Source of the DNA: Coffea arabica
Lineage: Eukaryota > Streptophyta > Magnoliopsida > Gentianales > Rubiaceae
Direction of reading: 5' to 3'
Assembly (NCBI RefSeq): GCF_036785885.1
Contig: NC_092312.1
Location: 23,268,001-23,332,000, forward strand
Length of the DNA stretch: 64,000 bases
The position numbers were made by a program, and so were the translations under genes. Positions 5,737 to 32,808 of the stretch are shown here, piece by piece (position 1 is the first letter of the stretch; every line of letters begins with the position of its first letter). The notes below the pieces were generated by a model. It saw only the letters and a list, made by a program, of their open reading frames with translations. It searched no databases and was not told where the DNA came from.

Positions 5737-7797
5737 TCATGCATTGTACCTACAAAAAAAAAAACAAAAAAGTTCAGTACATTCGTAACTTTTTCGCAAC
5801 AATGCTGCATTGCCAGAACATTTTCAAGACAAGAAGGCAGTGGATGAACTCAAGAACAACATTGCGGTATCCAACTAGTTAAACATAAAGCACCAAAAGT
5901 AGGAAATCAATCTATTCTGGCTCCATGTCGACATCAGTTACTGAATAAATCTTTTTATCTTCAAGCCACATAACAATAGGACTGACCAAGGGAAGTCCCA
6001 AAAATACAAAAAGATAATTTAAAAATAAAAGAGGGCTGGTGTTCAGGAAAAAACATACTATCTCATATAGAACATCCTAATCATGTTAAACATGTACTTT
6101 TATCCTTGATCAAAGCATGAACCAAGATGCTTAAACCACAGTAGATTTTAATTGCAGCAAATTGGGCTCAAAATCATTCCAGTATGCTTAAGCTAAAGGG
6201 TACTGATGCTACTATGACTTGATGCTGGCTCAACATCAACCATAAGGATGAAACAAACCAATTTGGGCACTTCAAAGTAATAAAGAAACCATGTATTCAA
6301 GAAACGTCTATGTTGAGGTGGGACATCTAACTCAATTTTATTTCGACAGGAATAAGGTAACAGTAACAGCTTGCACAGTAGGGAGTTTGAAAATCACTAG
6401 TTCACAATGCTTTCATCCTTAGAACTGTTACATACCATAAACAGGAAATCCAAAGGCAAAAAGATTTTTGGATGGTCCAAATCAGTGGGAATACAAATAT
6501 GCATCAGAATTTTCTCCATGCCCTAAGGGTCATATATCAGCCTAAACATATTAAGAATGTCAAAATGAGAGATAGAGCGAGAGAGAGAGAGAGAGAGTCT
6601 CTCAAAACGTATTGATTCTTCTAGGCAATCGAAAATGTTGAAAACATTAGAAACCCCAAGACACTGACTTTGAAGCCTGTCTCATGGACAGGAGGTGCAA
6701 AAAAACAGAAGCAACTTAGATTCAAACTTTGAATAACATACTAAACATACCCATCTAGATGGATGAATGCGGCCAGAGAACCACAAGCTCCTCCCAAAAA
6801 TGCCGATAAGCCTAACTTATAGGGAAGCTCTAAAATGGCGGTAAATAAAAGTCAAATTGCTATTAGCAATAGAAAACCATCTGGCACAAGAATTATATTA
6901 GTGATCACAACAAAAATTTACCCATGAAATCAACTAGAGCTCGAACACGCCCTTTCGTTGAATTTGTAGCCGCTCTGCACCAAACACAAATCCAGGTCAT
7001 GCCCCAGCTAATAGGTAACATGCTTGAAATCAGAGGCCAAAGCCCAAGCAGCAGACTGTCGGGAAAAAGAGAAACCAACATACAGAAAAAAAAAAAAAGA
7101 GAGGAGAAACTGCGAGGGTTGAAAAACAAAAAAAAAAAGGAAAAGCAGACATCTTCTTCGCAATGTTAGACCCTTTTCACTAAGTAATTTACAAGTATAA
7201 AATAATGCATGCCTGCTCTTGCTCTTTCTCCAAACACTCATGAGGATGAGAAACAAGCCGCAATTAGAGTCAAGAAAGCAAGAAAATGGGAAAGACACCT
7301 ATTATCCATGGGAACTTAATCTGTTACCAGAATGACTCATAAAACTTAGAAGGAGGGGACATTAAAGGAACAGGTTGCCACTAATCAGCAAAGGTTTACA
7401 GTTATATTTGCTACAATATCAGGTGGAGGTGGCCCAAGATTTTAATCCTCCAGTAATAGTAGTCTGATCCAGAAAAAAAAAAAATTTATTTTCTCAGAAT
7501 CATAAAACACATAAATTAACGGAAACCGGGCGAATTAAATGCATGGACACGGATAATAGGCAAAAGAAATTAGTATGGTATAGTATGGGTTTTAGCAGAA
7601 AGATACTCAGAGGAAAAAAAGCGGTGGGCGGGCGATGGAGCCATAGCCGTTCCTCCTATTGCAGAGAAATGCCTAGCGGTCAGACATTTACTAAAATTGC
7701 GCCTGAGGGGAAAAAACAAAAATAAAAAAAGTGAGTGGATTGTGAAACAGAGGAGAAAAGATACGAAGGAGAAAGCATACCCGAGCTGCGTTGCCAT
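5737..7797 (-). CDS. Family gene A: small protein with mitochondrial-type presequence
   Basis: First of five paralogues here (A-E). Exons on minus: 7797-7781, 7702-7607, 6974-6922, 6829-6751 and probably 5749-5737; all introns GT..AG, phases 2,2,1,2. Joined, they give 85 residues: MATQLG, a basic acid-poor stretch (RNFSKCLTARHFSAIGG), an ARxFSS-like site (HRFFSSE), a helix-prone part, and one hydrophobic segment (LGLSAFLGGACGSLAAFI). The presequence and single membrane segment suggest a mitochondrial membrane protein, by inference. Function unknown; family not recognised. The last exon is uncertain: the phase-compatible acceptor gives only GYNA before a stop, while an Asp/Gly tail like that of E (SGTDGGN) sits just downstream in another frame; use of an internal AG near 5724 would restore it. 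Confidence 0.6.
6567..6599. repeat. GA microsatellite in intron of gene A
   Basis: A run of GA units, slightly impure at its start, lies in the long last intron of gene A. It is on the T/C-rich side when read in the gene's direction. Confidence 0.8.
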
Positions 7798-9254
7798 GGC
7801 TTTGAATTTCTCTCCACGAAAAGATACCCCAAAAAACAAGAGAGCAATTTAGGGATTGACTCTTTACTCGCTAATACTTCTCTTTACGTGATTTATTATG
7901 GTTTCGCGAGTGATACTTTCAAAATACCCCTATTTAATTGATTAATTAGGAATTAGATTGTCGCGGAGCTGCGACAACGGTCCTTAATTAGAACTGCAAA
8001 ATAAATTTGTGTATCAAATTAATTAATAATAAAAATTAGGGGCTAAATATGCACTAACGAAAAAGTTTAAAAATAAAATTGGCTGTTTTAGTACAAATCA
8101 CAGGTGAATTACCTTTGTCTTTGAGTAATGGGTTATTTTAACAAGTTTACTCGAGTCCAAATCGTTCCATGTTTTAACAAGCTAAAGTCATATTATTAAA
8201 ACTTGGAACTCTAAGTTGAGTTGATCCCAAATCAAGTTTCATAATTTAACTTCATCCCAAAGAAAAGGAGAAATGAGAATGGAGAAAGAAGGTGATAAGT
8301 TGCGGTATGGGATAATGATAAGGTTGGAAATGCGACATAGTTGGAGAAGGGGTAGCAAATCCGAGGAGGAGGGAGACTTAGACATAGGTTGAGGAAGGAA
8401 GGAGAAGGGGTATTTTTTTTTTTTCAGCAACGGTAGAATTTGTATCGATGACAAAAGATGTACATTTATACGAGTAAAAGTTCAAATGATTCTATATAAA
8501 AGTGCCAGACACGTTGATGATTGATTCATTCCTCGTCTTGACAGATGCGCAAGGCATAATCACTAATCAATTTACATCTAGAATCGAAGCTCCTATCCAA
8601 ATAAAAAGAGCATTTCTGGAATAAGGACTTCGGATTGTTAAAGAAGGAGGTGGTAAGTGGATCAAAAAGATTAAAAAGTGGAGGATAGATAAGAAGGGAA
8701 AGAGGGGTGACAATCTATGAGGTGGTGGGAAAAGAGCGAAAAAAAAAAAAAAAGGAAAGTTAAACAATCACAAAATCCAGATTCAATCCGAACTCGATCA
8801 AAAAATTCTTTTTTCCTTTTGTTCATTGCCAACTGAAGAACATATTGAATTCTTAGAGAGTATTTAATAATTTGATGAAAGAAACGAGAACTTTTCTAGA
8901 ATGGGAGCTGTTGCATCAAGCATTTTAGTAACATGATAGGCAATAATGTAATTTTAAAAGTTATAAACAAACATATATATATAACTCATTCGGTAGATTC
9001 TAACAATAAAATGACACTCTTTTGAACTTTTATCCTATTATTTTCAATATAAAATAGCATGTGTGAGAATTCTAGTATTTTTATAATTGCGACCTCAATT
9101 CCTGAAGGCGAATTATATATTCAAATGTTCACAATAAATAATTATAAAACACAGAACCTTCCAACACCCAGAACTTAATTACTACTTTAAATAAGCAAGC
9201 AATCACACATTTTCTTTTTGGGCATATGAATGTAATAGTAAATATTTGGATTTT
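7798..9254. other. AT-rich intergenic stretch with purine-rich tracts
   Basis: No gene seen. Two strongly purine-skewed stretches, about 8255-8410 and 8640-8765, produce long but low-complexity reading frames on the opposite strand. Similar purine or pyrimidine tracts recur at 14.8, 15.3, 19.0, 28.6, 36.2 and 37.2 kb, which suggests a repeat family, possibly MITE-like. Confidence 0.4.
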
Positions 9255-9750
9255 TGGCATATGTATGTAGCTCTTCATTACTGCAACTTCCCCAAAATTA
9301 TTTTTTAAATTGTTTGCGATGAAAATTAAGATTTTTGCAACTCTTCATGATTGCAACTTCTTTAACACTATCAATTTTTTTAATCATTTTGTGATGAAAA
9401 AAAAAGATTTTTGTAAAATTGTAACTCTTCACAATTGCAACTTCTCTAAGAATATACGACTGGGTTCAGGGTTGGAATTTTTGATCCAACAAATAGGGGT
9501 GGAAACGGTATGGGGAGGGGTATGAGGTATTTTAAAAAAGTTATCAAATACTAACAAAATTCTTTTCTTTTAATCGTTTGTGATGAAAATAAAATTTTTC
9601 CTCACAATTTAATAAAATATAAGGCAATAAAGAGAAATAATTTGACGGTTTGATATATGTTTGTAACTCTTTGCAATTGCAACTTCTTTGATACTACCAG
9701 AATTTATTTCTTTCTAAATCGTTTTTGATAAAAATAAAGTTTATTTTTTT
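9255..9750. repeat. Degenerate tandem repeat, unit about 80-110 bp
   Basis: The block AACTCTTCA.NATTGCAACTTC followed by an AT-rich spacer and TTTGTGATGAAAATAAAGATTTT recurs at least four times (near 9270, 9340, 9425 and 9665) with much divergence. No coding content. Confidence 0.55.
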
Positions 9751-11017
9751 ATCTATTAGTGTCATTGGCACAAATTAATATATCAAAATTATACTTAACT
9801 TATTATATAAATATACATTAATAATTATTACTTTCTTTTATATTTATACACTTTTCCTAATTAATTTTATACTATGCAAGATAGACCTTCAAAATAAGGA
9901 TTAAAAGTAAAAAGAAAAAACCCCATAACCTATATGCCTAGTTGTAGTTTACCCCTAAAGTACTTTTATAGGAACTTTGCTCCTTTCATGATATAGTTGG
10001 ACAGATCTACCCTTTCTATCTTAAACATTGTTGTTTTTTTTTCCTATTATTTTCGTTTTAGTTTCTTCCTTTTTTATTTTTTTTTATCTCCCATGCTATT
10101 ATTATTTATATACCTCGAATATAATTTTCAATATTGTTTAAATCGGTATACTACATTGGTCAAAACTTGTTTATTTCTTAATTATGCATGTCAATATTTT
10201 ATAATAGAATTCTATAGTATACAAGATTTTTTTTTTTTTTACCAAATTGTGAAGTCAATGCCATTTAAGAAATTGAAGTATTCAAATATATATGAATAAA
10301 ATAGAGATATTGATTAATCAATTATTAATAGTATCAATAACAAATGAAAAAATTAACTGGTGTTGTTGTTTATCCTTATCCTTTTTTCTCTTTCACTACA
10401 AATTACATAACTTTTCTTTCTAATGTGATATATAATATGTTATTTTTGCTACAAATTGTTGAGTAATTGTGAACTCTAATTGGTTTATAGGTACTTAAAT
10501 TGTTAAATTACTAAATTAATACACTTTACGATATAAGCTACGTATATTTTGTAGTAACAAAGAGTTTATAATGAATGATTAAGAATGAATTTAATAAATA
10601 AACCAACTAGAAAAATAAGTTAAAAGAATATGAAAAATTTTTATACAAGTATTTTAGCATCAGAGGAAAACAATTGGCCAGTGACGTGAGAGAAGGGGAG
10701 TAAAATACGAAAATAAAAATAACCTCAAAATAATTGCTAATATCACTTGCAGGTTTTAGGTCCTTCAACTCCTCTGTCTATTTTCTTCCCCATTTTATTG
10801 AGTGAATGCTCCTGGACGCATCAATTGATTTGAGCAATCTCCCGGTCCTCCCTGAGCCAACTTCTACCACCAGTATATATGCTATGCTTATCTATGAAAG
10901 AACTGGTTTCTATTTTCTCTTGTTTGCCTCTCCCTAATCGCTCTTTGTTTCATGAAAATTTTCAGACTCATATAGGAAGCCTTGGATTTTTAGACCCGGT
11001 GAGGAAATTAGGGTTCA
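9751..11017. other. AT-rich region upstream of gene B
   Basis: Very AT-rich up to about 10670, then more balanced. The 5' flank of gene B lies at its right end, with a TATATATG-like stretch near 10875. I see no gene or recognisable element. Confidence 0.4.
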
Positions 11018-13083
11018 ATGGCAAAGCTGCAGCTGCTGGGGTGGGCTATTTTTTGTTTTCTTTGCCTTTTACCGTTTCTTGGTTCTGAAAGTGTATTTAA
11101 ACTTTAGTCCACCCTCGGTTTGTTCTTTTTGATTCGTTTTCTATAGGCAATCATGAAAGCTTTGTACTAGTATGCAGTAGTATGTGTCTGCTGTTTCTTT
11201 TTTTTTTTTCCTGATTATTTTCTTTTTTAATTTTGCAGGCGCAATATTGGCAGAATCTTTACTTTCGGGCATCTGTCTTCTGATTTGGGAGTTTCGTCTG
11301 TGAGAGGAAGAACAGCACTGGCTCCGGCCACAGCCCGCAATTTTTGCACCCAGTACAATTCTGCCAAGCCCCTTCGTTTAGTTTGTTGAATTATTGTTAT
11401 TTCTTTTCGTTTTTTCTACTGAAGAGTGGGATGATCAACTATTGCATCTGCTATTTTGACTTGTCACCCAACCCTTGGAACACACTACGGCCGCAGGCGG
11501 CGATTTTGTTGGCCTTGTGTATGTGTGTAGTGGTAACCCGCATTCATGCCTTTTTTTCAGTAGGCTGCCTCCTCCTCCTCCACCACCTCTGGAAAAATGG
11601 CGTATTCGCAGTCTGGTGAAGTCCATTGGTAAAATTCCTTACAGCTGAAGTGGTAATATGTTTTAAGTTTCTTTCAGTGCCTGTTTTCACAGTGACTAAC
11701 TAGTAGTACTTCACTTCTTTTCTTGCCTTGTATGCCAGATAAGACAAGACTGAGTTGCATAATTGCCTTTTTTGGATCAGCTTTCCTCTTCTACATCTTT
11801 ATGGAGGATGAGTATGTGTCTTTCATCTTTAAAATTCATTTGATCTCTTTATTTGTCCGTCAGCATCTTTGAATATCTGTTATTTGCTTTGTGCTGATTT
11901 GTATTTCCTCTTCAACTTGCATATAACTCATAAGATGAACAAGTGTACTTTTCCATTTTCAAGCTTCATAACCATTTTCTAGTCCTCTATGAATCGAAGA
12001 ATCAGATGCTTGGGAATCCATATATGCACATAGTTTGAACTTCAAATTACTGTTTCCAATTGTACTCTTATTTTGTCTATGATGTAGAGCATGTTTTGCT
12101 ATCTTGCCATGCATTTTTTGCTTAAGCAATCGAGATGTTGATTTCTTTTGATTTATCATTGTGGTAGTGCTAGAATGTAGATACGCAATTTAGAATCATG
12201 GACGTAACTCTTCCCCACTTGTCATATTTGAAGCATATTAAATTGGAGGTCAACTTATTCCTGGTATACTCCAACTTTGCATATGTGTTTTGGTTGTGCC
12301 ATCTTGAGATCTTTTTTCAATTATCCTTTCCAAGGGATAGACTCTCTCAGTCCCACTCTTCCCTTTTCCCTATAACAACTGCCCTTCAGTATTGGTAACA
12401 GCAGCAGCAGTGGATGTCTAGCTGAAATCCTGGGTTTGCCACCTTAAATAAGCACATGCACGTAAAAGGCACCTTAGCCAGAACGGATACAAGGTCAACG
12501 CAGATAGGATATTGATGAATGAATGGGAGCCTTAGTTTAAGCTTTGATATGGAAACTAGAAATTCACTTGCAACTTTTTTCTCTTTGCAAATTGTTTGAA
12601 TACTCGTTCTTTAGACCAGATATTTTTCTTTATTAGGCATGAATTATTAGGTTGCATTTAGGTTTCAATGATCAGATTTTCTGTAATACCTTGCTATGCT
12701 TCTCATTCTATTTGCTTGTATGAGGTGTCATTACATTGCTTATGTTCTGTCTTGAGTTCATGGACTATCTTCTTTTTCTTGAGGAACTTTTGCTATAGGG
12801 AAAAGGTCCTTGTGAAAAATTTACGAGCAAGGTTCATTATTTGATCGGAATAGGGTCCTGTAAGATGTTTATTTAGCAAGGCAAACCAATTTATTGAAGT
12901 TCAATACTACAATGAGCTGTAAGGAACTTGTTTTTGGTTATGTACATATCTCCCTGTGGCTCGTTGTTTGCGAAATGTTCAAACATTATCTATCAAGTAA
13001 TGGAATAACGTTATATTTGTTTTTCCAGGATCATGGATAGGCGCCAGATGAGAGAGGGAGTCCGTCAGAAGGATGGCACTTGA
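11018..13083 (+). CDS. Family gene B: small protein with mitochondrial-type presequence and one membrane segment
   Basis: Exons 11018-11040, 11239-11352, 11561-11628, 11739-11811 and 13029-13083 join to 333 nt, 110 residues plus TGA. All introns are GT..AG with phases 2,2,1,2, the same as in A and D; exons 2, 4 and 5 have the same lengths as in D (114, 73, 55 nt). The protein reads MAKLQLLG, an Arg/Ser-rich presequence-like part (RNIGRIFTFGHLSS..), the site TARNFCTQ, a run of seven prolines, WRIRSLVKS, a hydrophobic segment LSCIIAFFGSAFLFYIFM near residues 70-87, then a charged tail (MDRRQMREGVRQKDGT). Start is the ATG 22 nt before the first donor. Inferred to be a mitochondrial single-pass membrane protein. 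Role unknown; no frame damage seen. Confidence 0.75.
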
Positions 13084-14751: not shown

Positions 14752-14810
14752 TCTCCTCACCTTTTTGTACTTTCAGCATCTGTGAAATTTTAGGAAGCAT
14801 TTGAATAATC

Positions 14811-15006
14811 GTTGTAATATTTCGTCACTCTCCACACATCACCGAACCCAGCTCTAAAGCCGCCGCCCGCCACCCGCCACCACTCTCCCCATCACTTTCG
14901 CCATCACCTCCTCCCCCCGGCCACCCCCTTCTCCTCCATTCCCCCTCCCCTCCTACCTCTCCCTCTTTTTTTTTTTTTTTTTTTGTTTGTTGTTTCTAAA
15001 GCTTTG
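14811..15006. repeat. Pyrimidine-rich tract
   Basis: C/T-dominated sequence (CCGCCACC-type units) followed by a T run of about 19 at the right end. It leads directly into the duplicated block 15008-15480. Non-coding. Confidence 0.5.
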
Positions 15007-15788: not shown

Positions 15789-18751
15789 TCAAACACCATC
15801 CCTGCCACCGCCACAATCGGTGCCGCCGCCATCCCTGAGGTAGGAAAAACAGATTTGATTTCAACAACATATGTGCTTAGCAAGCATCTAGGCATTAGAC
15901 TACAACAGCAGACTGCAGAAACACAAGTATGAAAGAAAATATGATCATTTTACCCCCCAAATACAGGAAACTAAACTTTGGTTTCACAGGCAGTGCAGAC
16001 GTAGCTTGGAACAGAAAAAGAGTAGATAGTCTTGGATCTAGTAGCTCTATTACCAGTCAAATGCCGTCAGACAAACTTACCCCACACAAAATATAAGAAG
16101 CCACAGTGTGTAACCACACAAATGAACAGAACAAACCTCTTGTCGCTGAACTTCAAGTTTGCAATGCCAGTCCTGTCACGTCAAGAAAAGCACATGAAAA
16201 TTGATAAAATGTTGAGCAGTTTTTCAAGTTATAGATCCTAGCAAGAGTTGAAGATGCTTTTAAAGTTTTAATAAAACAATTAATGAGTTTAATACATGGT
16301 TAGCCATCTTGCCCGAGTCCGATACAACTCGATAATAACCAGAACAGAAGGAACCGGTATGCTATCAATCTACAAATCGTGGATAATTCTATATTCACGG
16401 CGATTCACTTTGACTGGACCGATATTGACTGCTTCGAATCCATGATGCATGAAATAAACCAAAATATCCAAATCAACTTGAAATCGACTCGATTTTTTTT
16501 TTCGGAGTGTGCCTTTTATAATATTTTCTGTTTTTAGTAATTTTTTCAGATTTTTTTTTGAAAATTTTTATGTGTTATAACATACGTATCACTCGATATC
16601 TAACTGATATATCGCAACGTATGTGAAACAACCGCGACTGTGACCCACCACGCAAACCATGTTTAAATAGGACCGTTAAGAAAATTCCAAAATCTAAATG
16701 AAAAAGTTTAGCACAAGACAAGACAAGCACCAGCTTCCTTTTCTTAGTAACCGAACTATGACAAAGAATGAAGACATGAAGAAGACAATTACTCTTCAGT
16801 CTTCATACGTCTGTTCTGAATATGTTTAAATTCAACTCAATCCCAACCCATTCAATATGATTTGACATCCACACAGAAAAAGTGCAACATGTGATTGGGG
16901 AACTATATCAGCAATTCTTCACCGCTTTATCGAATTAATTTAGTTCTATTCCTTTGCCAGAAACAATACACCATTCATGGAGGATTTTTTCCTCAAATTC
17001 TCCTCTGTTCCAATCACTTCTCATTTTTGGGGTAAGAGAGGGGGAGGGGGTGGTTGTTGGCTATCCAGAAGGTCAGCCTTTTAGTATCAGGACTCTAAGG
17101 CTTCTCCCAGTAGAAAAAGTAGACAACTAAGAATTTGACAGCTAAGAGCTTGTAACATCAGATCCAGGTTATATTACTCCATGCCAAAACATGAAACAAA
17201 GAAGACAAAAAAATTTAACACTAACCTAACTCAAAAGGAATTTGCTTCAACATGTAACTGAATTAAGTATGATTAACGGACAAAATCAACAAAACCTATT
17301 TATAGTGATTAGTAGAAATAAATGGTGAAGGACAAATATCTTCTCGATCCAAAGGCATGTTCAGTATGAATATGGAGACTAGGAAGAAATTTTTCAAATA
17401 ATATTATTCTCAAACAAAGCAGGAGAAAGAGAGAACCTCGAGCAAGCTGACTTTGTAAACTCCTTGATATCACACAGAGTTCTGCAATTAGGAAAGAAAG
17501 TTAACAAGAATAATGAAATCATGATTCAATAAAATGACCAACAATGTATAGACGAGAGGAGCTATTGATTGCACCTTTGAACCGCACAAGCGAAAACACA
17601 AGTCCCTATAGTCAGCTGTAAACAGTCACCTGGCAGGGACAAAAAATTGGAATTTTTTGAATAAACAAAACAGAATCACATTTGAAATTCCAAAAAAAAA
17701 ATTTCCTTTTTTCCTGAAAAAATTCACATTTGAAAAAAAAAAGAATTTGACAAAAAGAGCTTACTGAATGATAATTCCTTGAATTCAGCCATAAGCTCGT
17801 GAAATTCTCTTTTAAGATGTGTAGCAGACCTGCATAAGAACATAAATCCTCAGGAATTAGTAGAAGAAATTGCGAGAAATCCTGTATTTCAATTCTCTTG
17901 TTCTCGAATCAGTTCTCACATTTTACAATCTGTTCAACTAAACTAAGAGGTTTCACTTTAGAAAAGTAAGCTTTGCCCTTGAATGCCCAAAAAACTCTTT
18001 GCGGACCAAGCTACTACTGTATTGCAGGAAAAGCCAATTGCAGGATGAGCCGCACTCCTGGATTTAGTCATCTTTTAACAGTTAATAGAAGAGAATAGAG
18101 ATTCAACCTATCTTAGAACAGACACTTGTTCAGCAATCCAAGCTCTCAAAACACTAGATATGTGTTGATACTTATGAACTCTGCCAAAAGTAAATTATGG
18201 GCCATAGAAGTATATACAAGGAGCCACCATATTCGATGATCACATAACTCTTTCAAATGACTAATAAATTTTCCAAATTGAGGAGAAGAAGACAAAGGAT
18301 CTCATATTCCAGAAAAGTTCTATTTGCTCAAAAGATACAAAATACCAATAAAGCAGATAGTTAGCTCTAACACAACCATTATCTGCTAAACTTACAAAAA
18401 GGGAACATAACATGCATTAAGGAAAGAGAAAAAAAAGTCATGATATCTGAATCAATTTGTAAAAGAACTACCAGGATGAGAACTGGCGGCGGGCAGGCAG
18501 TAAAGCCGTTGCTCTTGCACTTGCACCGCTCCTCGCGGTTGAAGACCCCGCAAAACCCGCTGAGAAAGGGCCAACGGGGGTAAAATATTTGCCTAAATTC
18601 CGCCTGAAACGAATACATACGAAGAAAAAATTTAGGCTATAAGATATGTATACATATGTGTTTGTTGCATTAGAAATAAATTAAATTATAAACGAAATCG
18701 AAAGATAATCGAACAAAATGCCATTCGATCTAACCGAAGATGCATCGCCAT
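15789..18751 (-). CDS. Family gene C: small protein with mitochondrial-type presequence
   Basis: Seven exons on minus: 18751-18735, 18603-18472, 17829-17765, 17629-17575, 17481-17437, 16172-16137 and 15834-15789, total 396 nt, 131 residues. Exons 1-6 have the same lengths as in gene E (17,132,65,55,45,36) and the same phases 2,2,1,2,2,2. The product starts MAMHLR, has an Arg/Ser/Ala-rich presequence-like part with GPFSAGFAGSSTARSG and ARRQFSSW, a helix ELMAEFKEL, a short hydrophobic part LQLTIGTCVFACAV, a basic stretch, then a tail DGGGTDCGGGRDGV. All frames are open and splice sites canonical, so it looks functional. Site inferred as mitochondrion; function unknown. It is the inverted duplicate of E (about 11.5 kb apart). 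Confidence 0.75.
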
Positions 18752-19365: not shown

Positions 19366-20114
19366 ATGGCGATGCAGCAGCTGGGGTATTACTTTCCTTC
19401 TTCTTGTCCTCCCCCCCCCCCCCCCCCCGACCCCCTCTCTCTCCCGGCGGTATCTAGAGAGAAAATGAGTTTTGAGAATTTCTTCCTGTAATCGAGCAGT
19501 TCGGGTTTGTCTTTTCTTTTGGCAGCCGCAATGCGGGTGCATGCTTTGCGTCGAGGGCGGTGTCAGCTGGTTTGGGGGCTTCATCCGTTAAGAGAGGAAA
19601 AACAATAACTCTGCCACCTGCTCGCAGTTTCTGTTCTGAGTATTCTCTACTACACTGGATGCCCTTTCCTTGTTTTATTTCCTGTTGTATTGACTCTGCT
19701 AAGAACATGTTGGTACTCTATTATATAAAGAATGCAAGATACTCGTTTTCCCTTTTTTTTTATTGTACTGATTTAGTGTTATTCTTTGCGCCTGGAAGTT
19801 TAAAGGATTGTATATATCGGTCTTGGATGAACATGAAGGTAATAAAATTAACCTTCATAGATGTTAAAAGGAAAAAACACCTTCATAAATGTTAAAGGTG
19901 GGGTTCAATATTAGGTAATGATACTTAATTTATTTGTACTAGATTCATTCATAGTATGCGCTTGGTGCATACCTGTTGACCCAGTCGTCGTAAATTTGTT
20001 TTCATACTTGGCATTCCTTCTAATCGAGTTATCTGAGCCAAGTCTGGGTCAACTAAGTTGGCTTATTTGCATCTTCTATCATTGCTTCATCCTGGAAATC
20101 AAATGCTTTAGCTT

Positions 20115-20168
<54 letters not shown>

Positions 20169-23100
20169 TATGAATTCCTTCAGAAGTTGATTTTCTCTAG
20201 CGAATTGTTAATGCCGTGTGAAGTAGGCATTGTGGAAAACAAGGAAGATTGCTTAATGATTCAATCAACCTTTAGGGCTTTCAGATATTGTGTCACCACG
20301 TACGACATAACTAGTATTTTGGTGTTATTGTCATCACTAGGTCAGCATGGGCTTTGCATATTCTTGTTGTCTACCTCCACATCATGAAAATGAAAAATAC
20401 ATAACCAGATTATAACATTGAACAAGGTGGCACTGACAAAAACTTGTGAAGCAGACTTGCATAAAATCATCACCAGCTTTAAATTTTCCCAAAGAAACGA
20501 GCAGATCCTTGCTCTTGCTTTCGTCTACTGTTTTTTGCCTTGCCATTTTGCCATTGATGTTGACTTGGAATTAGGACTCCAGTTGTTCCACGGCAATCTA
20601 TGTGTCATGATTTGTGACTGGTCTGCTTCTCTTAGCATTTTAAGCAACAGTTTTGTCTCTTGAAATAGTGATCCACCCCGCAAGCTTTGCAAAGCAATAA
20701 TAGCCAGACCTTTTCAAACACTCAACCCTGGACCCTGTTACAGGGGCAAAACAAGTACCTCGGTGCTTAGGACTCATAATGCAGGAATCCAACTCTACCA
20801 GCCCAAGCAATGTCAAATCCAGTCAATCACAAAAGCTGAATGAATGAAGGCTCATCAGCCTTTGTGTTGCATATATGTAAACCTATATATGTCTCAGTGT
20901 GTAGGTAAACTTATGTATCCCAAAGAATACACGATGTATGTAATCAGTAAATTCTGGCGTAATTGCATTTTCGAACATCTCAATATTCCTCTATTTGTAA
21001 GTTGTAACCCTCTCTCTCTGTACGAAGTGCTAAGTGGCTCTATAACCTTTGGTATTTGTGGCTTTCTCTTCTCTTTTCTCCTGTCGGTACAAAGTGTTAA
21101 AAAGAGAGGACAAGATACCAGATTAGATATGTTAATAATGGAAGGTCATAAAAGAATGAAAGAATTTTTAGGAGAGGGGGGGGGGGGGGGGGGAGAGGCA
21201 GGGGTTTGTTGTGGGACTGAGGGTGCTCCTCATTGAGATTTGAGTTCTTCACCTTTTACCTAGCCAGAGCATTATTTGACTTGTCCTGTTGTGCAGTGCT
21301 ACTCCACGTTTGAAGGAAAGGCTTCATGATCGCGTGCTTAAATTTTTGGGTAAGAGTTACAGCAGGATTGTTAGTTTGTTTATTTTCATCAAGTGCTTTT
21401 CTTTTCTGATTGTATTTTTTTTTTGTCCCCTTATACTGTCAGACTACATCGCTCCGTTGCCTCTACTGATGTTTGGTGGATGTCTTGATGTCTATTATGA
21501 CTATAAGGAGGAGAGGTACTTGATTCAATTGTTTTTTTTTTTTTTTTATTTTCTCTTATCTACTTCAGGACATTTTTTGGCATTTGAAATGATTTTCTTT
21601 CAACGTTGTTTAATTTCAATTTTTCAGCCGCATTGTTGATAGACGAGTTACTTATTTTATTGCTGCAAATCTTACTCTTCTTTAACCTCAAAATGACATA
21701 TAGGACTTACCAAGCATATTTTTGTGCACCATTTTTCTTTATATCCTTTGGTTGAAGACATCTGGGACACGGTACAGCTCTATAAAGGCTACTTCTTGCA
21801 CTTTTTGATGACGAAGTCAAAATTAAAATAAGCTGTTCAATGGGAAGAGATTTTCTTTGCCTCTGCATTTGTATTTCAAGTTCAAAATTTTAACCACTGC
21901 TAATTAGATTTCTTATTTCACCCTACTGTAAAGGCAAATAGTTTGTTATGTCTTTGCATTTCATGCTTGTCATACATATTGATTGCAGTAGTTGCATGCA
22001 GTCAGGTTATTAGACTTTATGGCAATAGGCAAACAGAACAACATGCTGATTATACAACTGTTTTCTTTATCTTCTGTCAAGTTTCTGAATATCTATTGGG
22101 AATATTTTCCTTTATGTCTTTGAAATTCACGCACAGTACACGCTTGCCCAAGTTTTTGACTTATGAGCACCGGAAAGTTCGGAGTTCATTTGTTTGTTTC
22201 TTTTTTTTTTGTAGCAACGATAATAGTTTATATAACCTATTCTAATCTAATCTAAGGAGACAGAAAGGGGAAAGCCACAAATAGTGGCTAGTGGGAGGCA
22301 AGGATCAAATCCTTGACCTCCAACCTCTACCAGGACTTAAAGGCGTCTTGGTGACCTTGGGCTGTTGGCTTGGAGTTCATTTGTTGTGTTGCTGAAATGC
22401 TTTGCTGCAATTTGATTGATGGCTCTGTTCCTGCAAATTGGCTTGCCAGGAGATTATAAAAGAGCTAAAAGCATCTACTTGCCTAATCTGAAAGAATCTT
22501 GCTAGAGTTGCTGAGTTTGCATTTTAGAAAAGATGATTGCACTGTAAAATGAATGGAGATTGGTAAAGGAAGTTGGCGGTGAGATCGTGGTTGTGTTTTT
22601 AGGTAACTTGGATTTTGTGCGTGCAAGCTGAGAAAAAAGCTGAGAGATAGGGTCATGAATTTGTTCTATATTTGTACTGTGGTCATGCCTTTGAATGTAG
22701 TGTACCTCTAAGATTTAATCTTTATCTCTGCTCCTACGGGTGTAGATAGTCAGATGCGTTGATATGATACTTTGCTTACAGTTGATTCTTTGTCCACCTT
22801 GTCTCAGTATTTTGTGCTAGATGCTGTTATAGTTGCTGGTTACTTAGCCGTATGTTTGCTGACTAAGTTAAGCTTGCTAAATGAGCGAACTCAGCTACTT
22901 AGCAGAGGTGATTTTCAGGCATTTAGGTGCAGTTTCATCAATGGGTTAGTCTTATAGCTTGTAGTAGTGGTTTTGTATTTGTATATGCTTACTCCACATA
23001 TCTACTTGCACGATTAAGGGGATAATGGTATTGAACCTAGGGCCTTGGTGAGGGCACCTCACTTTGCTGGTTGTGGGACGGTTACACAGGAAAATTATGT

Positions 23101-23578
23101 AATACCCTCTTTAAATGCCTTGCATTGAGCACATCATATTTAGCTATGTTTATATCATGTTGTTGGCACAAATTTGTAGATGTTTATAAGCTAGCTGTAT
23201 TTGTCTACAATATGAAATAGCACTCCTTTATACATATGGACTTTCCACTGTGCTTTCATGTATGAATTTTTCAAATTGATTAGAGGGATGTCCTTGATGT
23301 CATGAACTATTACCTCCTTTTCTGGAGTAACATTTGAATTGTAAGTTCTCATGGTAACTGGTAAAGATTAAATAAGGGGGCTAGACAATAGTTGGACAAG
23401 ATTTGGCAGGTCAAAGATGATTGTTGTTCTTTTGCTTCATTTGTAGTTACTTGAAAAAATGTGTACAACTGAATTAGTGGCATGCACAACACAACAACAT
23501 GAAATTCATTTTCTGAACCTCAGGGATCGTGGTGGCTTCAGCGACGTTAACGGCGGTGGCAGCGTCAGGGAGGGTTGA
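19366..23578 (+). CDS. Family gene D: small protein with mitochondrial-type presequence and one hydrophobic segment
   Basis: Exons 19366-19385, 19526-19639, 21297-21349, 21443-21515 and 23524-23578 give 315 nt, 104 residues plus TGA, with phases 2,2,1,2 as in A and B. Parts in order: MAMQQLG; a presequence-like stretch with RNAGACFASRAVSAGLGASS and PPARSFCSE; a basic helix TPRLKERLHDRVLKFL; a hydrophobic part IAPLPLLMFGGCLDVYY; a charged DYKEER; and a tail DRGGFSDVNGGGSVREG related to the tails of C and E. Introns 2 and 4 are long (1657 and 2008 bp); intron 4 holds a SINE. An additional exon near 21630 was considered but has no phase-matching donor. Likely divergent partner of gene C (615 bp between their ATGs). 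Confidence 0.7.
19409..19428. repeat. Poly-C run in intron 1 of gene D
   Basis: An almost uninterrupted run of C residues, bordered by CTCC-type sequence. Length is likely to vary and may be prone to sequencing error. Similar G runs lie near 15422 and 21176. Confidence 0.85.
20118..20165. repeat. TA microsatellite in intron 2 of gene D
   Basis: About 23 TA units in a row. Confidence 0.95.
22195..22371 (-). mobile_element. tRNA-derived SINE in intron 4 of gene D
   Basis: Perfect 14-bp duplications GGAGTTCATTTGTT lie at 22181-22194 and 22372-22385. On the minus strand the insert begins CCAAGCCAACAGCCCAAGG, has a B-box-like GGATTTGATCCTTG and ends in an A-rich tail next to the left duplication. 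These are SINE features; the sequence differs from the SINE at 3272-3466, so it is another family or subfamily. Confidence 0.88.
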
Positions 23579-24480: not shown

Positions 24481-24511
24481 AAATGATCATGTGTGGTTCA
24501 TGTGAAAGTAG

Positions 24512-24513
<2 letters not shown>

Positions 24514-24571
<58 letters not shown>
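24514..24571. repeat. TA microsatellite
   Basis: Long run of TA units, ending TATGTATGTATATATG; the unit GAAAGTAGCTAT occurs on both sides of it. Confidence 0.95.
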
Positions 24572-24573
<2 letters not shown>

Positions 24574-24579
<6 letters not shown>

Positions 24580-25511: not shown

Positions 25512-25519
25512 TAGCCACG

Positions 25520-26245
25520 GGTAGGGGCGGGGTTGGGGCGGGGGACCCCTCCCCCATCCCCCGCCCCGCCCCGCCCCGCTTCCCCCGCGGGGTTAATAAA
25601 ATTTTTCCCGCTACGTTAATAAAATTTTATTATAGTTAAATTTTAATAAATAATCAAGTACTAAAATATCAACACATCATCAAGTTATTATTCATTTTAA
25701 TTTTACAATTGAAACTCATAAAAACAATCAAACAAAAATTATTTGAATACAATCCAACATGATGAAATAAATACAACTAAAATAGTTAAGTTTTCACTTT
25801 TGGTACAAATACAATCACTAATTCATTATTGTGTTTGTGCTTTTTTTTTTTAGAAAAAAGTGTTATTCTATTAAGTATAATTAGAAATTTAGTATAAATG
25901 TATTAGTAAATTTAGTATAACTAATTAATAAATTCTATTAGTAGACATGTCTAATTATTCGTATAATTGATAATATTAATTATATTACATACACTAATAT
26001 ACATTATATAATATATCTAATTAATAATATCATTATCATAAGTTTATAACTAATTAAATTACATATTATATATAATTATATATATAATTTTTTTTTGCGG
26101 GTGGCGGGGCGGGGGTATACTCCCCCGCTCCCCGACGCGTTTCTAAACGGGGGGAAAAAATTCCCCCCCGCCCCCGCCCCAACCCCCGTCCCGAGAGCCC
26201 CTCGCGGGGCGGTTGTCCGCGGGCACCCGTCCCCATTGCCATCCC
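25520..26245. mobile_element. Non-autonomous hAT-like element, 726 bp, perfect 8-bp target duplication
   Basis: Perfect TAGCCACG duplications at 25512-25519 and 26246-26253 flank an element with G-rich or C-rich ends and an AT-rich core. The right end reads CCATTGCCATCCC; the left end is degraded (GGTAGGGGCGGGG). The core matches the copies at 2110 and 34212 in inverted orientation. Same length as the 2110 copy. No transposase. Confidence 0.85.
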
Positions 26246-26253
26246 TAGCCACG

Positions 26254-27467
26254 GGAGTTTTTAGTGAGGTAAAAGAAAGGAAAGGAAAATTGAGCAACAA
26301 TTAAAAAAAAAAGATTTCTGCTCAGATCCGGACAGAAATGGAGAGGAACTTGCGAGAAGCCTATCAAAATTTTTCGAATACCCATCTTGTCCTAATTAAA
26401 TTGTTGAACAAATTTTTATGACCTTTTTGTATGTCCAAAATGATTTCACGTCTTTCCATAATGCCTAAACAGTATTACGAACTCTTCTTTTCTCTCATAA
26501 TTTAAGTTTTCTCTTGTTTCCTTTTCCATCCTAAACTCCAAAGCCTTAAATGAATATCACTTTTGGCTCACCCAGAAAGTTGACTAACAAAACAAGAGGA
26601 AGAAAAGAAAAATTGAAAGGATTCTAGCAGTATATACACCCAAACTAGTTGTCTGGATTAAAATTTGCAAATATCGGATGTCCCTTCCGAATGTGTTTTT
26701 CAGAACACTTTTTATACTGCAATATATACTTTATATACGACAGAACGTACTTAAGAAAGATTCTGAATTTTTTCTCCCCTCCAATTTATGAGTATCCAAA
26801 CTGATTCAGCACCCTGCACTACTACAGATAAAAAAAAAAAAAAAAAAATTTAACAAAGATGAAAGAGGCCTTCTGTTATAAATATTGTACATAGTTGTTT
26901 CTTGGGGTGGTTACTGCTTTCCACAGAAATACGCACAACTTAAAAAGGTATGACAAAATTGCTCACCTTGAAAGAGATTCTGTGAGAAATGATTTGCCCG
27001 GAAGGCTGGCAACGCTCCCTGTAAAGACTAGCATATTCACCCACCGAAAGCTGCAGCCAATATTGCTCTCATCTCGCAGAAGGTTCTTTTGCCCCGTTTC
27101 ATCTTCTGTCCCAGATAGAATATGAACCATACCCAGCATTGAACGGAACAACCAAATAAATAGTGTGTAATAATTCAAAGAAGCAAGCAAGCAAGCTAGT
27201 TTGGATCGGTGAATCATCAGTAATGCTAATGCAAAGCACTACTGTATGTGATGGGTGTATCTCGACTTGCAACTGCATGACATTTTATGCTCGACTTTAT
27301 GCGCCCACTGGAACGCTCATCATTCATTGCTGGAGGTCCTCAGGCGCCCATTCCCTTTCAATGAGCAACAAGCTACACTTTATGCCTAACAAGCGCGCAC
27401 TCCCGTGTTCAAAAGCCGTAAACGGGGTTAGATTCGTACTCCTCCATGCTAAATATATATTTTGATA
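26254..27467. other. Intergenic stretch
   Basis: No convincing gene. Around 26895-27125 a plus frame contains SSRRRFFCPVSSS, faintly like the presequence of the A-E family, but there is no neighbouring exon structure to support it. Confidence 0.35.
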
Positions 27468-27476
27468 CATTAATAA

Positions 27477-27985
27477 GGAAAATTCGTTTAAGGTGTCTCT
27501 AATATTTTGTCTGTTAAAAATTTTTATGTTTATTTTCAAAATGATATTTTTACGTCCCATATAAAATCAAATCGATAAAATTTGATCCAAACTTAAATTT
27601 TCGATCACTTTGTATCATATGAATCCATTACGTAACCCTTACATGATTTATTCTTTTGTAGTTAACAGAGTGACTCAATTTATATACATTTTTGCCACTA
27701 AAAATGTAGGATACAACCCATATCATGTTATCTTTTTCTTTAAAAAGTTGTGGTCTGATCTAATTTATATTTGTTTTTGCCACTAAATGAGTAAAATTTG
27801 TACATAAAAAATAATTGCACGTGGGTCGCACGGTAATTTCAAGCTATAAAGTCGTCGGTAACTTAAGTTAGAATAAAATTTTATTAATTTAAATTTATGA
27901 GGGACGTAAAATTAACATTTTAAAAATAAAAAAATGAAAAGAAATTAATTGACAAGATATGAGAAATGTTTTAAACGGTTTTCCC
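27477..27985. mobile_element. Short MULE-like element with long inverted repeats
   Basis: The ends GGAAAATTCGTTTAA and (reverse complement of the right end) GGGAAAACCGTTTAAAA open inverted repeats of more than 100 bp sharing AAAATGNTANTTTTACGTCCC. Flanks CATTAATAA (27468-27476) and AATTAATAA (27986-27994) agree at 8 of 9 positions, as expected for a MULE target duplication. No coding capacity. Confidence 0.75.
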
Positions 27986-27994
27986 AATTAATAA

Positions 27995-30283
27995 CTCATG
28001 CCATTGACACTTGTACAAGATGTCGATTGTTAGAGGTGTTGAATCTTTTGGGTGCACAAATTTAATCTTCTTAAAACCAACCTACGTTGGTTAACATGTA
28101 TAGTTCACTTGTATGAAGCATTGGTGCCTTTTTAGACTAGAGGTTGCTCGGTCTCCTCTAGGTCACTGTTTTGAAAATTGAAAATGCCCGGTTGGTTAAA
28201 GTATCTGATTGAATTGTAAACCAGTTAAGTTATTGTGTCAATCCGATTCACTAATAAAATCAATCCAAAGCTGGTTAAAATCGCTCACAACTAATATAAT
28301 TGGAATGTCGAACCAATTTTTACAAAAAATTTCTTCTTCTTTTTTGGTACATATCAATTTTGTCCAAATTATTCAATATTAAAATTTTGAAGTACAAGTT
28401 TTTGTATTTGAGGTCTACAGTAACGCATTCCAAAAAATATCACTAAAAACACGTATTAATTCGTACAATCTCAAGCATATATAATAAAAATATAAAAAAT
28501 TTCTTTCTTTTTGCACTTATTACCCCACCTTCCATCACGTACCATCGGCCATCCCTCCTCCTCTCTCACCCTCTTTCTCTCCCTTCTTCCATTGCCACTA
28601 CCACTCCCGCCAGATTAAGGGTAGAAGGGAGGGAGGGGGGTTGCAGGGTAGAAGAGGTAGGACGGAGGAGGTGAGGGAAAGAGGAGAAGGGAGGAGTGAC
28701 GATGCTACAGAGGAGGGTCAAAAACTTTTATTAAAAAATATTCTAATATAATTTTAAATTTTAAAAACAATCTAAAATATATTCACAGTAATGAGTTTTT
28801 GACATACTCTACTACATCATAGATAACGTAGCTCTATTTTCAAGGTACGCATTTGTTTGATCGCGCAAAAAAAAAAAAGGGTGTCTAGCAACTAGCAAGC
28901 GTCGACCGAATTGTCATGTACCGATGATACTCACGAGTTGGAAATCAGAATCTTATCCACATTGAAAAATTGGATGCCGATCAGCCTGTTTGATATGGCT
29001 GTTTAATCAGCTAGCAGTCCAGTTTACTGAGAAACCAAAAGAGGTTTTATAACACCGTCTGGCCCGGAGCCCTTATTGTCTAACGGGAATAATTGCTCTA
29101 CTCCTATCCTATCCTATTAGGAAGGAGAGCCGCCCAACTGGGCATGTAGTGGAAGTGGAGGTGGTTTTCAATACCAAACAAGCACACTTTAAAATTTGCT
29201 TTAATTTACATACACTCTCTTGCGGTTTGTTTGGCCAAATTAACGAGTTATACCTCAAAGTCTGGCGAAATTTCATTTATCTCCCTTTGTCAATGACACC
29301 ATTTTTGGTTCTTCTATTTCTTGAAAGAGGTTTCTTGATCCTAACTCGATCTCTCCACTTTTTTCCAATTCTAGCATCTGCAGGCTTGATGATGCGTCCT
29401 CTGTGTTTGAGTTTGATTGTCGTGACATAAGCAATCAGAAATCCTATCTACTCAAGTCGGGAGCTGAGTAACAATACCTTATTTTTGTTGAAAAAAAGTT
29501 TCCAAAAAACAAAAGGAAAAAAAAAAAAAGTCAAACTTTAATGTTCATCTACCCTGAATCGTTAATGTTTCTTCTGTAATAAGGTTCGTTCCATAAATAA
29601 TTCTTCATTCAATTAGAACAGTTCAAATAGAAGAAAGGGACTTCAGTTTATGAGGAAAGCCAATAGAACTTAAGTTCTTTGCATAGATTGCTTACAAATG
29701 AGTAAGCCATTATTGAGCCAGCAGTAAAAGAGAAAGGTTTCTTTTTTTTTTTCTTTTTTTTTTTTTAAAAAAGTGTTGGTATGGTACAAAGAAATAACAG
29801 AGCCATTATTGGCATACACAGTATGTTGGGCAATATTCGGTGAAAATCTTTTGGTGCTTGGGAAAAGAATTTAATCGACTGTATAGGACAACGCTCAAAA
29901 CCAATGAAAAGTATTTGATCTGGGCTTAAATTCAAATATAGATACACGGTTTTATCTGGCCTTTTTTGAGTTTAATTTTGTTTTGCTAAGGAGCAATACG
30001 TTTTAATTTGGTGAACCTGCCATGCCCGCTTGCAGGAGTCATGCTGCCGGAAATTAAGGTCGGGATAAGATATTGTTGGCCAATTTTTTAGGACTTCGGT
30101 TGGTTTACAAATTAAGAGTCTGTTTGAAGTTTTGAGTTTTGGGGGATCTTTCCGTCATTTAGCCAAAAATTATAGTCACAGCCGCCCGTCTCTCGCTGCA
30201 ACTTTCGTATCTGGTCTTCGGTTTTTTTTTTTTTTTTTTTTCTTGCGGATTTTTCTGGACTTTGCAGAGACTGAATAAGAGCG
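27995..30283. other. Intergenic stretch upstream of gene E
   Basis: Contains a pyrimidine-then-purine skewed block at about 28500-28725, a reading frame at 29149-29430 without recognisable content, and T runs near 29740 and 30220. No gene supported. Confidence 0.4.
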
Positions 30284-32808
30284 ATGGCGATGAATCTTGG
30301 GTTAGATCGAATGGCATTTTGTTCGTTTATATTCCGATTTTGTTTATAATTTAATTTATTTCTAATGCAACAATCACATATGTGTGTGTATATATATATA
30401 TCTTTTAGCTAGCCTAATTTTTTTTTGTTTCAGGCGGAATTTAGGTAAATATTTTACCACCGTTGGCCCTTTCTCAGCGGGTTTTGGGGGGTCTTCAACC
30501 GCGAGGAGCGGTGGAAGTGCAGGAGCTATGGCTTTACTGCCTGCCCGCCGCCAGTTCTCATCCTGGTAGTTCTTTTCCAAATTGATTCAGATACCATAAC
30601 TTTATTTCTTCCTCTCCGTACTGCATGTTATATTCACTTTTGAAAGTTTTAGCAAATAATGGTTGTGTTAGAAGCCCTCTTTTTATACCCAAAGAAAAAA
30701 GGAATTTAGGGCTAACTATCCGCTTTATTGGTGTTTAGTATCTCTTACTGAGCAAAAACACGTATAGAACTTTTCTGGAACATGAGATCCTTTGTCTTCT
30801 TCTCCTTAATTTGGAAAATTTTTATTGGTCATTTGAAAGAGTTATGTGATCATCAAATACGGTGGCTCCATGTATATACTTCTATGGCCGGTAATTTACT
30901 TCTGACAGAGTTCATAAGTATCAACACATAAGCTAGTGTTTGGAGAGCTTGGATTGCTGAACAAGTGTCTGTTTTAAGATAGATTGAATCTCTATTCTCT
31001 TCTATCAACTGTTAAAAGATGACTAAATCCAGTAGTACGTTTCATCCTGCAATTGGCTTTTCGTTCTAGTATCAGGCCATACAGTAGTAGCTTGGTCCGC
31101 AAAGAGTTTGTTTGGGCATTCAAGGGCAAAGCTTACTTTTCCAAAGTGAAACCTATTATTTTAGTTGAACAGATTGTAGAAGTTTGAGAACTGATTTGAG
31201 AACAAGAGAACCGAAATACATGATTTCTCGCGATTTCTTCTCCTAATTCCTGAGGATTTATGTTCTTACGCAGGTCTGCTAGAAATCTTAAAAGAGAACT
31301 TCGCGAGCTTATGGCTGAATTCAAGGAATTATCCTTCAGTAAGCTCTTTTTGTCAAATTCTCTTCTTCTTTTTTTCAAATGTGAATTTTTTCTGCAAAAA
31401 CGATTTTTTTTTGGGTTTTCAAATGTGATTTTGTTTTGTCTTTTCAAAAAATTCCATTTTCTTTTTTCCTGCCAGGTGAGTGTTTACATCTGACTATAGC
31501 GTCAAGTGTTACTGCTTATCTGCTTCAGAGGTGCAATCAAGAGCTCATCTCGTCTATACATTGTTGGTCATTTTATTGAATCCTGATTTCATTATTCTTG
31601 TTTAACTTTCTTTCCTAATTGCAGTACTGTGCGTGGTATCGCGAAGCTTACGAAGTCAGTTTGGTCGAGGTTCTCTCTTTCTCCTTCTTTGTTTGAGAAT
31701 AATAACGTTATTTGGAAAATTTCTTCCTAGTCTCCGTATTCACATTGAACATGTCTTTGGATGGAGAAGATATTTCACATATGGTCCTTCACCCTATTTA
31801 TTTCTAGTAATCACTGTAAATGGGTTTTGTTGATTTTGTCCGTTAATCACACTTAATTCGCTTACATGTTGAAGCAAATTCCTTTTGAGTTAGGTTAGTA
31901 TTAAATTATTTGCTTTCTTTGTTTCATGTTTTGGCATGGAGTGATATAATCTGGAATTGTCCAAGTAGTCTTAGTTGTCTACTTTTTCCACTGGCAGAAG
32001 CCTTATAGTCCCGATACTCCAAAAATGAGAAGTGATTGGAATAGAGAAGAATTTGAGGGAAAAAAAAAACCTCCACGAACGGTGTATTGTTTCTGGCAAA
32101 GGAACCGAACTAAACGAATTCAATAAGGTGGTGAAAATTTGCTGATATAGTTCCCAATCTTATGTTGCATCGTTTCTGTGTGGATGTCAAATCATATCGA
32201 ATGGGTTTGGATTGATTTGAATTTAAGCATATTCAGAAAAGCCATATGAAGGGCAATAGATACTTGTCTTGTGCCAAACTTTTCGTTTAGATTTTGGAAT
32301 TTTCTTATTGCTCTTATGTAACTCGTTAATTACCTTCAACTCTTGCTAAGATCTTTTAACTTAAAATACTGCTCAACATTTGTTCAATCTTCGTGTGCTT
32401 TTCTTGACTTGACAGGACTGGCATTGCAAACTTGAAGTTCAGCAGCAAGAGGTTTGTTCTGTTCATTTGTGTGGTTACATATTGCAGCTTCTTATAGTTT
32501 GTGTGAGGTAAATTGGTCTGACGGCATTTGACGGGTAATAGAATCACCAGATCCAAGACTATTTAACTCTTTTTCTGTTCCAAGTTACATCTGCATTGCC
32601 TGTGAAGTCAAAGTTTAGTTTGCTGTATTTGGGTGGTAAAATGATCATCTTCTTTCATACCTTTGACTTGTGTTTCTGCAGTCTGCTGCTGTAGTTTAAT
32701 ACCTATATGCTTGATAAGCGCATATGTTGTTGAAACCAAATCTGTTTTTCCTACCTCAGGGATGGCGGTGGCACTGATGGAGGCAGTAGCAGGGATGATG
32801 GTGTTTGA
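30284..32808 (+). CDS. Family gene E: small protein with mitochondrial-type presequence
   Basis: Seven exons: 30284-30300, 30434-30565, 31274-31338, 31476-31530, 31625-31669, 32416-32451 and 32760-32808, total 399 nt, 132 residues. Junction phases 2,2,1,2,2,2 and all exon lengths except the last equal those of C. Product: MAMNLG, RNLGKYFTTVGPFSAGF, GSSTARSGGSAGAMAL, PARRQFSSW, a helix NLKRELRELMAEFKEL, a short hydrophobic part LHLTIASSVTAYLL, a basic part GIAKLTKSVWSRTG, and a tail DGGGTDGGSSRDDGV. Introns are also similar to those of C, so duplication was genomic, not by RNA. Role unknown; presequence and weak membrane segment point to mitochondria, by inference. No frame damage. Confidence 0.75.

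Follow-up and report, generated by a model that had tools for sequence, protein, structure and literature searches.

Five Small Paralogous Genes in Coffea arabica with a Shared Presequence-like N-terminus and Divergent Predicted Mature Parts

Structure of the gene cluster

The window analyzed here is a 64,000-nucleotide stretch of the Coffea arabica genome (G000:C3:23268001-23332000), and genome-wide searches covered 1.198 Gb in 131 contigs. Gene models rebuilt from the sequence reveal five related multi-exon genes within 5.7-32.8 kb of the window, named A (-), B (+), C (-), D (+), and E (+) (Table 1). We consider it probable that they are real, nucleus-encoded genes for small, imported, and cleaved mitochondrial proteins with fast-diverging mature peptides.

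A preliminary description of this stretch had placed the gene starts at 7797-, 11018+, 18751-, 19366+, and 30284+, all of which are right, and had proposed a first exon beginning with MA and a common series of intron phases. Exon 1 indeed starts with MA in each of the five genes (17 nt in A, C, and E, 20 nt in D, and 23 nt in B), and donors 1 to 4 have phases 2,2,1,2 in every gene. The proposed common exon layout stands for these four junctions but does not cover C and E, where two additional symmetric exons of 45 and 36 nt, each in phase 2 at both ends, bring the total to seven; B and D have five, and A has four sure exons plus an ambiguous fifth. C and E are copies of each other, with 83% identity over 2.1 kb. 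The models contain 23 complete introns (3 in A, 4 in B, 6 in C, 4 in D, and 6 in E).

Counterpart cluster and coding constraint

A second chromosome-sized contig (C4) carries all five genes in the same order, with 83-98% identity in the aligned pieces of the cluster. Because paired matches occur on contigs up to C22, the genome looks tetraploid with 11 chromosome pairs, and the C4 genes would be homoeologs of those on C3, the contig of the window; a less likely alternative is that the two contigs represent two haplotypes. Canonical splice sites and open frames, first claimed for the window, are found on both contigs: all 23 complete introns are GT-AG on C3 and again on C4, where the frames of the copies are open and the acceptor of B exon 3 is taken at its corrected place (see below).

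The last exon of A, already called ambiguous in the preliminary description, is truly so, and different AG choices yield different tails. The first AG leads to GYNA and a stop, and the tails read from it are unrelated between the two homoeologs; a later AG leads to a GTDGG tail that resembles the tail of E. The acceptor region also differs in length between the C3 and C4 copies. This exon was left out of the difference and indel counts and of the simulation that follow.

Between C3 and C4, 61 of 1682 exon sites and 422 of 10576 intron sites differ. The exons contain two indels, both of 3 nt; among the 65 intron indels, 55 have a length that is not divisible by 3. When each gene was allowed to drift neutrally at its own intron rate (5000 runs each), the chance of staying intact was 0.161 for A, 0.060 for B, 0.005 for C, 0.064 for D, and 0.029 for E (joint P ~8e-8); the simulation is approximate in that any splice-dinucleotide change was counted as a break and one pooled indel rate was used. 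The pooled proportions of nonsynonymous (pN) and synonymous (pS) differences were 0.032 and 0.060, respectively (pN/pS about 0.5), and the single-gene ratios of nonsynonymous to synonymous rates (dN/dS) ranged from 0.31 (B) to 1.01 (A), all computed with an earlier acceptor of B exon 3 located 3 nt upstream of 11564. The constraint on A-E is real but weak.

These data bear on the alternative that A-E are decaying pseudogenes or chance chains of exons. The unsettled last exon of A would suit it, as would exon change that is nearly as fast as intron change overall, but it has to contend with the joint neutral probability, with open frames in both chromosomal copies, and with a natural spliced copy of B described below; we regard it as strongly disfavored and very improbable. 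Chance exon chains were rejected on the open frames and the neutral probability, and they are ruled out by the conservation on C4 together with the recovery of exon 2 in leave-one-group-out searches (see below).

A retro-copied fragment of gene B

A genome search with B identified, on contigs C19 and C20, a copy that has no introns 2 and 3: the end of exon 2 runs straight into exon 3, and exon 3 into exon 4. Unspliced intron 4 sequence comes next; in the C20 copy, the end of exon 4 is missing. Apart from the B genes, a search for the joined fragment returned these two sites and no others. The simplest explanation is that a spliced RNA was reverse-transcribed, and, since introns 2 and 3 are missing, B must be, or once have been, transcribed and spliced in the modelled way. 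The preliminary description had made its models depend on splicing at the predicted junctions, and for B this natural complementary DNA copy confirms two of them. The start of exon 3 is set at 11564, as CACCCA abuts GCTGCC in the retro-copied B and the upstream AG has been lost from the C4 copy; across the junction so defined, the B protein reads ..ARNFCTQLPPPPPPPLEKW.. A processed pseudogene is recognized as an intronless copy, and here A-E keep their introns, the intron-free copies detected being the C19 and C20 fragments of B.

Because an open frame matching a retroviral-polymerase SH3-like domain (PF25597, E 9e-19) lies ~1.2 kb downstream of the C19 fragment, a partly spliced B transcript was apparently captured by a retroelement, which reads as copia-like. 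The two loci with the captured fragment are L033 1477-3174 on C19 and L034 on C20, and in the C19 locus an upstream ATG frame runs on into the fragment (83 aa from stop to stop).

Shared presequence and divergent mature parts

Exons 1 and 2 are homologous in A-E and encode an acid-poor N-terminus rich in Arg, Ser, Ala, and Gly, whose final motif, R-x-F-(S/C)-(S/T), directly precedes exon 3. Exon 2 profiles built with one group left out at a time (leave-one-group-out), and run in all six reading frames against the window, 50 kb from C4, and 40 kb flanking the window on C3, recovered all four groups (E 7e-4 for A, 4e-8 for B, 1e-7 for D, and 5e-8 for C/E), and the best non-family window match in the four tests had E 1.0; the rows had been aligned together beforehand, which slightly helps recovery. 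In local alignments, the presequences beat shuffles in six of six between-group pairs, with 0 or 1 of 2000 shuffles reaching the score (in all shuffle comparisons of the C/E group, C was compared with E only). Before the cleavage pattern, A, C, and E have no acidic residue and B has one. The count of nine for D is not comparable because the pattern ran on to residue 93, and the stretch up to ARSFCS contains none by eye.

Arabidopsis ICP55 sites are given as RX(F/Y/I/L)|(S/A)(S/T), and a similar motif is reported for dual-targeted proteins (PMC4986872). The sites of A, C, and E fit this consensus (RFFSS, RQFSS). A mitochondrial-type presequence, as first proposed for the five paralogs, is consistent with the acid-poor N-terminus and with an R-x-F-(S/C)-(S/T) end resembling a plant ICP55 site, and chloroplast or dual targeting may be an alternative. 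With respect to these two features, A-E are like the plant MPP/ICP55-type presequence proteins (PMC4986872); the latter are, however, a general class and no family, and the mature parts of A-E have no match in Pfam, NCBIfam, or PDB.

In contrast to exon 2, leave-one-group-out profiles of exons 3-4 fail for A, B, and C/E, and recover D with an E-value of only 0.44. When exons 3-4 were compared with 2000 shuffles, the A-B pair stood above them (5/2000), whereas the other five between-group pairs gave 93-734/2000; for the tails, the A-E pair stood above the shuffles (4/2000, using the later-AG tail of A) and the other five pairs gave 331-1612/2000. In all groups, exon 3 is 53-65 nt long, and a basic stretch is followed by a hydrophobic stretch. 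A conserved N-terminal module precedes predicted mature parts that are of like layout and nearly unrelated in A, B, D, and C/E. With the exception of one recent pair (C/E), it is the presequence that has been conserved between copies rather than the mature part, a point absent from the preliminary description. A presequence is usually only loosely conserved, the mature part being the conserved one, and this pattern is reversed between the A-E copies.

Such a pattern could also arise if a presequence cassette (exons 1-2) had been shuffled in front of four unrelated mature domains, so that A, B, D, and C/E would not be full-length paralogs. Clear homology of exons 1-2 next to mostly undetectable homology of exons 3-4, a putative cleavage site at the exon 2/3 junction (phase 2), and the failure of five of the six between-group tail pairs to beat shuffles all agree with cassette shuffling. 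It is at odds with the phases 2,2,1,2, the exon 3 length, and the basic-then-hydrophobic layout common to all groups, as well as with the above-shuffle scores of the A-B exons 3-4 and the A-E tails, and we consider it rather unlikely.

The preliminary description had also placed a hydrophobic segment in exon 4 of all five genes and inferred membrane insertion, for which support is weak. B alone has a clear transmembrane segment, with a Kyte-Doolittle 19-residue peak of 1.91 (shuffle P 0.024); the other four genes have only weakly hydrophobic segments, and the peaks of A, C, D, and E (1.51, 1.41, 1.43, and 1.14, respectively) are ordinary relative to their own shuffles (P 0.09-0.31). The customary transmembrane cut is a mean of 1.6 over 19 residues, and two of the ten proteins (B and Bh) reach it.

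A candidate sixth paralog at 26268-26396 of the window matched the exon 3-4 profile with E 0.027 and was rejected. The match is taken as chance because its C4 counterpart reached 0.2, the stretch gave E 0.13-0.14 in the tests with A or C/E left out, and no exon 2 was seen nearby. The exon 3-4 profile is weak, given that this non-family stretch matches it while D itself does no better than stated above.

Family and distribution searches

When the ten proteins were compared with Pfam-A (2025 copy), none had a match over the curated cut-off (five families were listed, the best being Hda_lid with E 0.014 in one of the ten), and A, B, D, and E in their first models hit 0 Pfam families. The NCBIfam search gave nothing beyond noise. 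In PDB, a profile of the ten proteins obtained four matches (best E 0.3), and B alone obtained 12, the best of which (E 0.048, a viral cofactor chain) was taken as chance. The family, unrecognized at the outset, thus corresponds to no described family in Pfam, NCBIfam, or PDB, and it is these libraries that "no family" refers to. Whole-genome searches with single proteins (A, B, D, and E, with C left out as the copy of E) produced matches with E <0.1 only in the C3 and C4 clusters and, for B, in the C19/C20 fragment, although distant exons can be missed in this way. Nothing better than E 1.1 was detected in the 40 kb made up of 20 kb on either side of the window. Literature searches turned up no paper on the A-E family, which is not a claim that none exists.

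Pace of change and selection

Between C3 and C4, change amounts to 14/682 sites in exons 1-2, 6/298 in exon 3, and 20/335 in exon 4, to be compared with the intron value given above. In the pooled homoeologs, exon 4 changes faster than exons 1-2 (p 0.002), and exons 1-2 change more slowly than introns (p 0.010). Between C and E, 14/55 sites differ in exon 4 and 11/45 in exon 5, as against 6/93 in the intron between them; the corresponding values for the C4 copies of C and E are 16/55, 10/45, and 2/93. Nonsynonymous change in exons 4+5 exceeds mean intron change both in the C/E pair (21/75 vs 207/2008, p 2.5e-5) and in the C4 pair (p 1.2e-5), the two comparisons sharing a branch and not being independent. 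However, nonsynonymous change in these exons is not significantly greater than synonymous change (p 0.20 for C/E and 0.39 for the C4 pair), and comparison with introns gives no significant excess for C (p 0.085) or E (p 0.53) against its own C4 copy. Moreover, a 50-column scan found intron stretches with 20 and 14 differences in C/E and, in the C4 pair, with 17, 15, and 14, where the count for exon 4 is 14 in each pair; some of these high-change intron stretches are low in complexity by reading. For these reasons, strong positive selection on exons 4-5 of C/E was dropped to a hint, and adaptive diversification of these exons is suggested and no more.

The same figures bear on a further account, namely that A-E encode an ordinary accessory subunit of a respiratory complex, or a factor for the assembly of one, that may already have a name in other plants and that was locally amplified and partly relaxed, so that fast change reflects loss of constraint and not adaptation. 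The pooled pN/pS and the single-gene dN/dS values look like weak constraint, and the three findings on exons 4+5 just given, including intron stretches that equal or exceed exon 4 in change, fit it as well. It is opposed by the excess of nonsynonymous change in C/E exons 4+5 over the mean intron rate and by the ten-protein profile, whose failure to match PDB beyond noise speaks against a solved-structure subunit without excluding one. We hold this account to be quite possible, if short of probable; it overlaps with the reading of A-E as fast-diverging imported peptides, and the likelihoods attached to the different readings do not sum to one.

Proposed role and points against it

According to the preferred reading of A-E as genes for imported mitochondrial proteins, the cluster would have arisen by local duplication in both orientations, each gene making a precursor of roughly 85-132 residues. 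The product of exons 1-2 would be a cleavable mitochondrial presequence, which would guide the protein across the import channels and be removed by a cut near R-x-F-(S/C)-(S/T), immediately upstream of the exon 2/3 junction. Exons 3 onward would supply a mature peptide of roughly 50-85 residues, in which a basic stretch prone to form a helix is followed by one of varying hydrophobicity (membrane-like clearly in B only) and by a polar tail that is Gly-rich in C, D, and E. With the presequence kept and the mature part diverging fast, the copies would send distinct small peptides to a common destination. The inner membrane is the most likely one, and there the peptides would bind other proteins as accessory or regulatory factors. 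We infer import, cleavage, membrane association, and such a binding role as the most likely properties of the products. A nuclear-mitochondrial arms race, in which a local gene array keeps the address and rewrites the cargo of short peptides sent into mitochondria, such as one against mitochondrial genes that cause sterility or are otherwise selfish, appears improbable.

Several points weigh against the preferred reading. The tail of A is ambiguous. A compared with its C4 copy looks like a relaxed gene, with a dN/dS of ~1.0 and more change in exons (10/245) than in introns (19/799), and A may indeed be relaxed. In A, C, D, and E, the hydrophobic segment does not reach the customary 1.6; at the S/A position of the ICP55 consensus, B and D carry Cys instead (RNFCT, RSFCS); and in the pooled homoeologs the excess of exon 4 change over intron change is not significant (p 0.09).

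Comparison with known systems

The nearest functional parallel found for A-E appears to be rice RF2, and this in layout only. RF2 is a nucleus-encoded mitochondrial Gly-rich fertility restorer of 152 aa with a putative 80-aa mature part, and it has no motif except a Gly-rich stretch, the Gly-rich domain being 29 aa long (PMC4884035). Compared by description only, RF2 and the predicted mitochondrial precursors of C, D, and E are all small and have Gly-rich sequence, which in C, D, and E lies in the tails of precursors of 104-132 aa; the 29-aa domain of RF2 is longer than the A-E tails, and the restorer function is that of RF2 alone.

Schistosome micro-exon genes have a conserved leader. They form a peptide family with a variable mature part (PMC4350168), and snake three-finger toxins, likewise built of a conserved leader before a variable mature region, are related copies with similar introns and strongly differing exon segments (ASSET, PMC2711939). 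A-E are like these systems in their similar introns, their strongly differing exon segments, and the symmetric 36-45 nt exons of C/E. By contrast, the toxins and micro-exon products are secreted, whereas the A-E leader looks mitochondrial, and the exon excess in A-E is only moderate; no homology is claimed. Should the pattern extend to other species, the cluster could serve as a test case for rapidly evolving nuclear genes that act inside mitochondria; even if ordinary, it comprises five tiny-exon genes, now with coordinates, that gene finders may split or miss.

Table 1. Exons of genes A-E, with positions in the window
Feature	Position	Strand	Basis
Gene A exon 1	7781..7797	-	GT donor, kept on C4
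Gene A exon 2, putative presequence, ends HRFFSSE	7607..7702	-	Leave-one-out profile E 7e-4
Gene A exon 3	6922..6974	-	Model lifted to C4
Gene A exon 4, weakly hydrophobic	6751..6829	-	Model lifted to C4, hydropathy
Gene A last-exon region, acceptor ambiguous	5640..5749 (low end approximate)	-	
Gene B exon 1	11018..11040	+	Model lifted to C4
Gene B exon 2, putative presequence, ends ARNFCTQ	11239..11352	+	Profile; 3' end joined to exon 3 in retro-copy
Gene B exon 3	11564..11628	+	Acceptor set by retro-copy
Gene B exon 4, transmembrane-like	11739..11811	+	Joined to exon 3 in retro-copy; hydropathy
Gene B exon 5 and stop	13029..13083	+	Model lifted to C4
Gene C exon 1	18735..18751	-	Model lifted to C4
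Gene C exon 2, putative presequence, ends ARRQFSSW	18472..18603	-	Model lifted to C4
Gene C exon 3	17765..17829	-	Model lifted to C4
Gene C exon 4, fast-changing	17575..17629	-	Model lifted to C4, exon rates
Gene C exon 5, 45 nt, fast-changing	17437..17481	-	Model lifted to C4, exon rates
Gene C exon 6, 36 nt	16137..16172	-	Model lifted to C4
Gene C exon 7 and stop, Gly/Asp-rich tail	15789..15834	-	Model lifted to C4
Gene D exon 1	19366..19385	+	Model lifted to C4
Gene D exon 2, putative presequence, ends ARSFCSD	19526..19639	+	Model lifted to C4, profile
Gene D exon 3	21297..21349	+	Model lifted to C4
Gene D exon 4	21443..21515	+	Model lifted to C4
Gene D exon 5 and stop, Gly-rich tail	23524..23578	+	Model lifted to C4
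Gene E exon 1	30284..30300	+	Model lifted to C4
Gene E exon 2, putative presequence, ends ARRQFSSW	30434..30565	+	Model lifted to C4, profile
Gene E exon 3	31274..31338	+	Model lifted to C4
Gene E exon 4, fast-changing vs C	31476..31530	+	Model lifted to C4, exon rates
Gene E exon 5, 45 nt	31625..31669	+	Model lifted to C4, exon rates
Gene E exon 6, 36 nt	32416..32451	+	Model lifted to C4
Gene E exon 7 and stop, Gly/Asp-rich tail	32760..32808	+	Model lifted to C4

Other features of the window

Inside and beside the cluster, a repeat of ~0.5 kb occurs at 2191-2774, 25546-26113, and 34276-35406 (85-89% alike), and its copy near 25.5-26.2 kb has GC-rich ends. A short dispersed repeat with 29 further genome matches at 69-83% identity lies upstream of gene A (7883-8000). 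Two copies of the C/D-box small nucleolar RNA snoR69Y (Rfam) were detected at 39750-39841 (-) and 40021-40110 (-), near a ribosomal protein S7e frame at 40271-40633 (-), and are perhaps intron-hosted. Open frames at 52756-54709 (+) resemble a ClpB-type AAA+ chaperone split into three pieces; the last piece (53984-54709), the sole one scanned, matches AAA_2 and ClpB_D2-small and overlaps the preceding piece in another frame at 53984-53991, which may reflect an intron or a break. The AT-rich region at 54760-57920 contains overlapping direct and inverted repeats of up to 0.9 kb. Finally, a coiled-coil-like frame with a hydrophobic C-terminal stretch at 849-1217 (-) has a weak, below-cut-off match to HALZ (E 0.0005).

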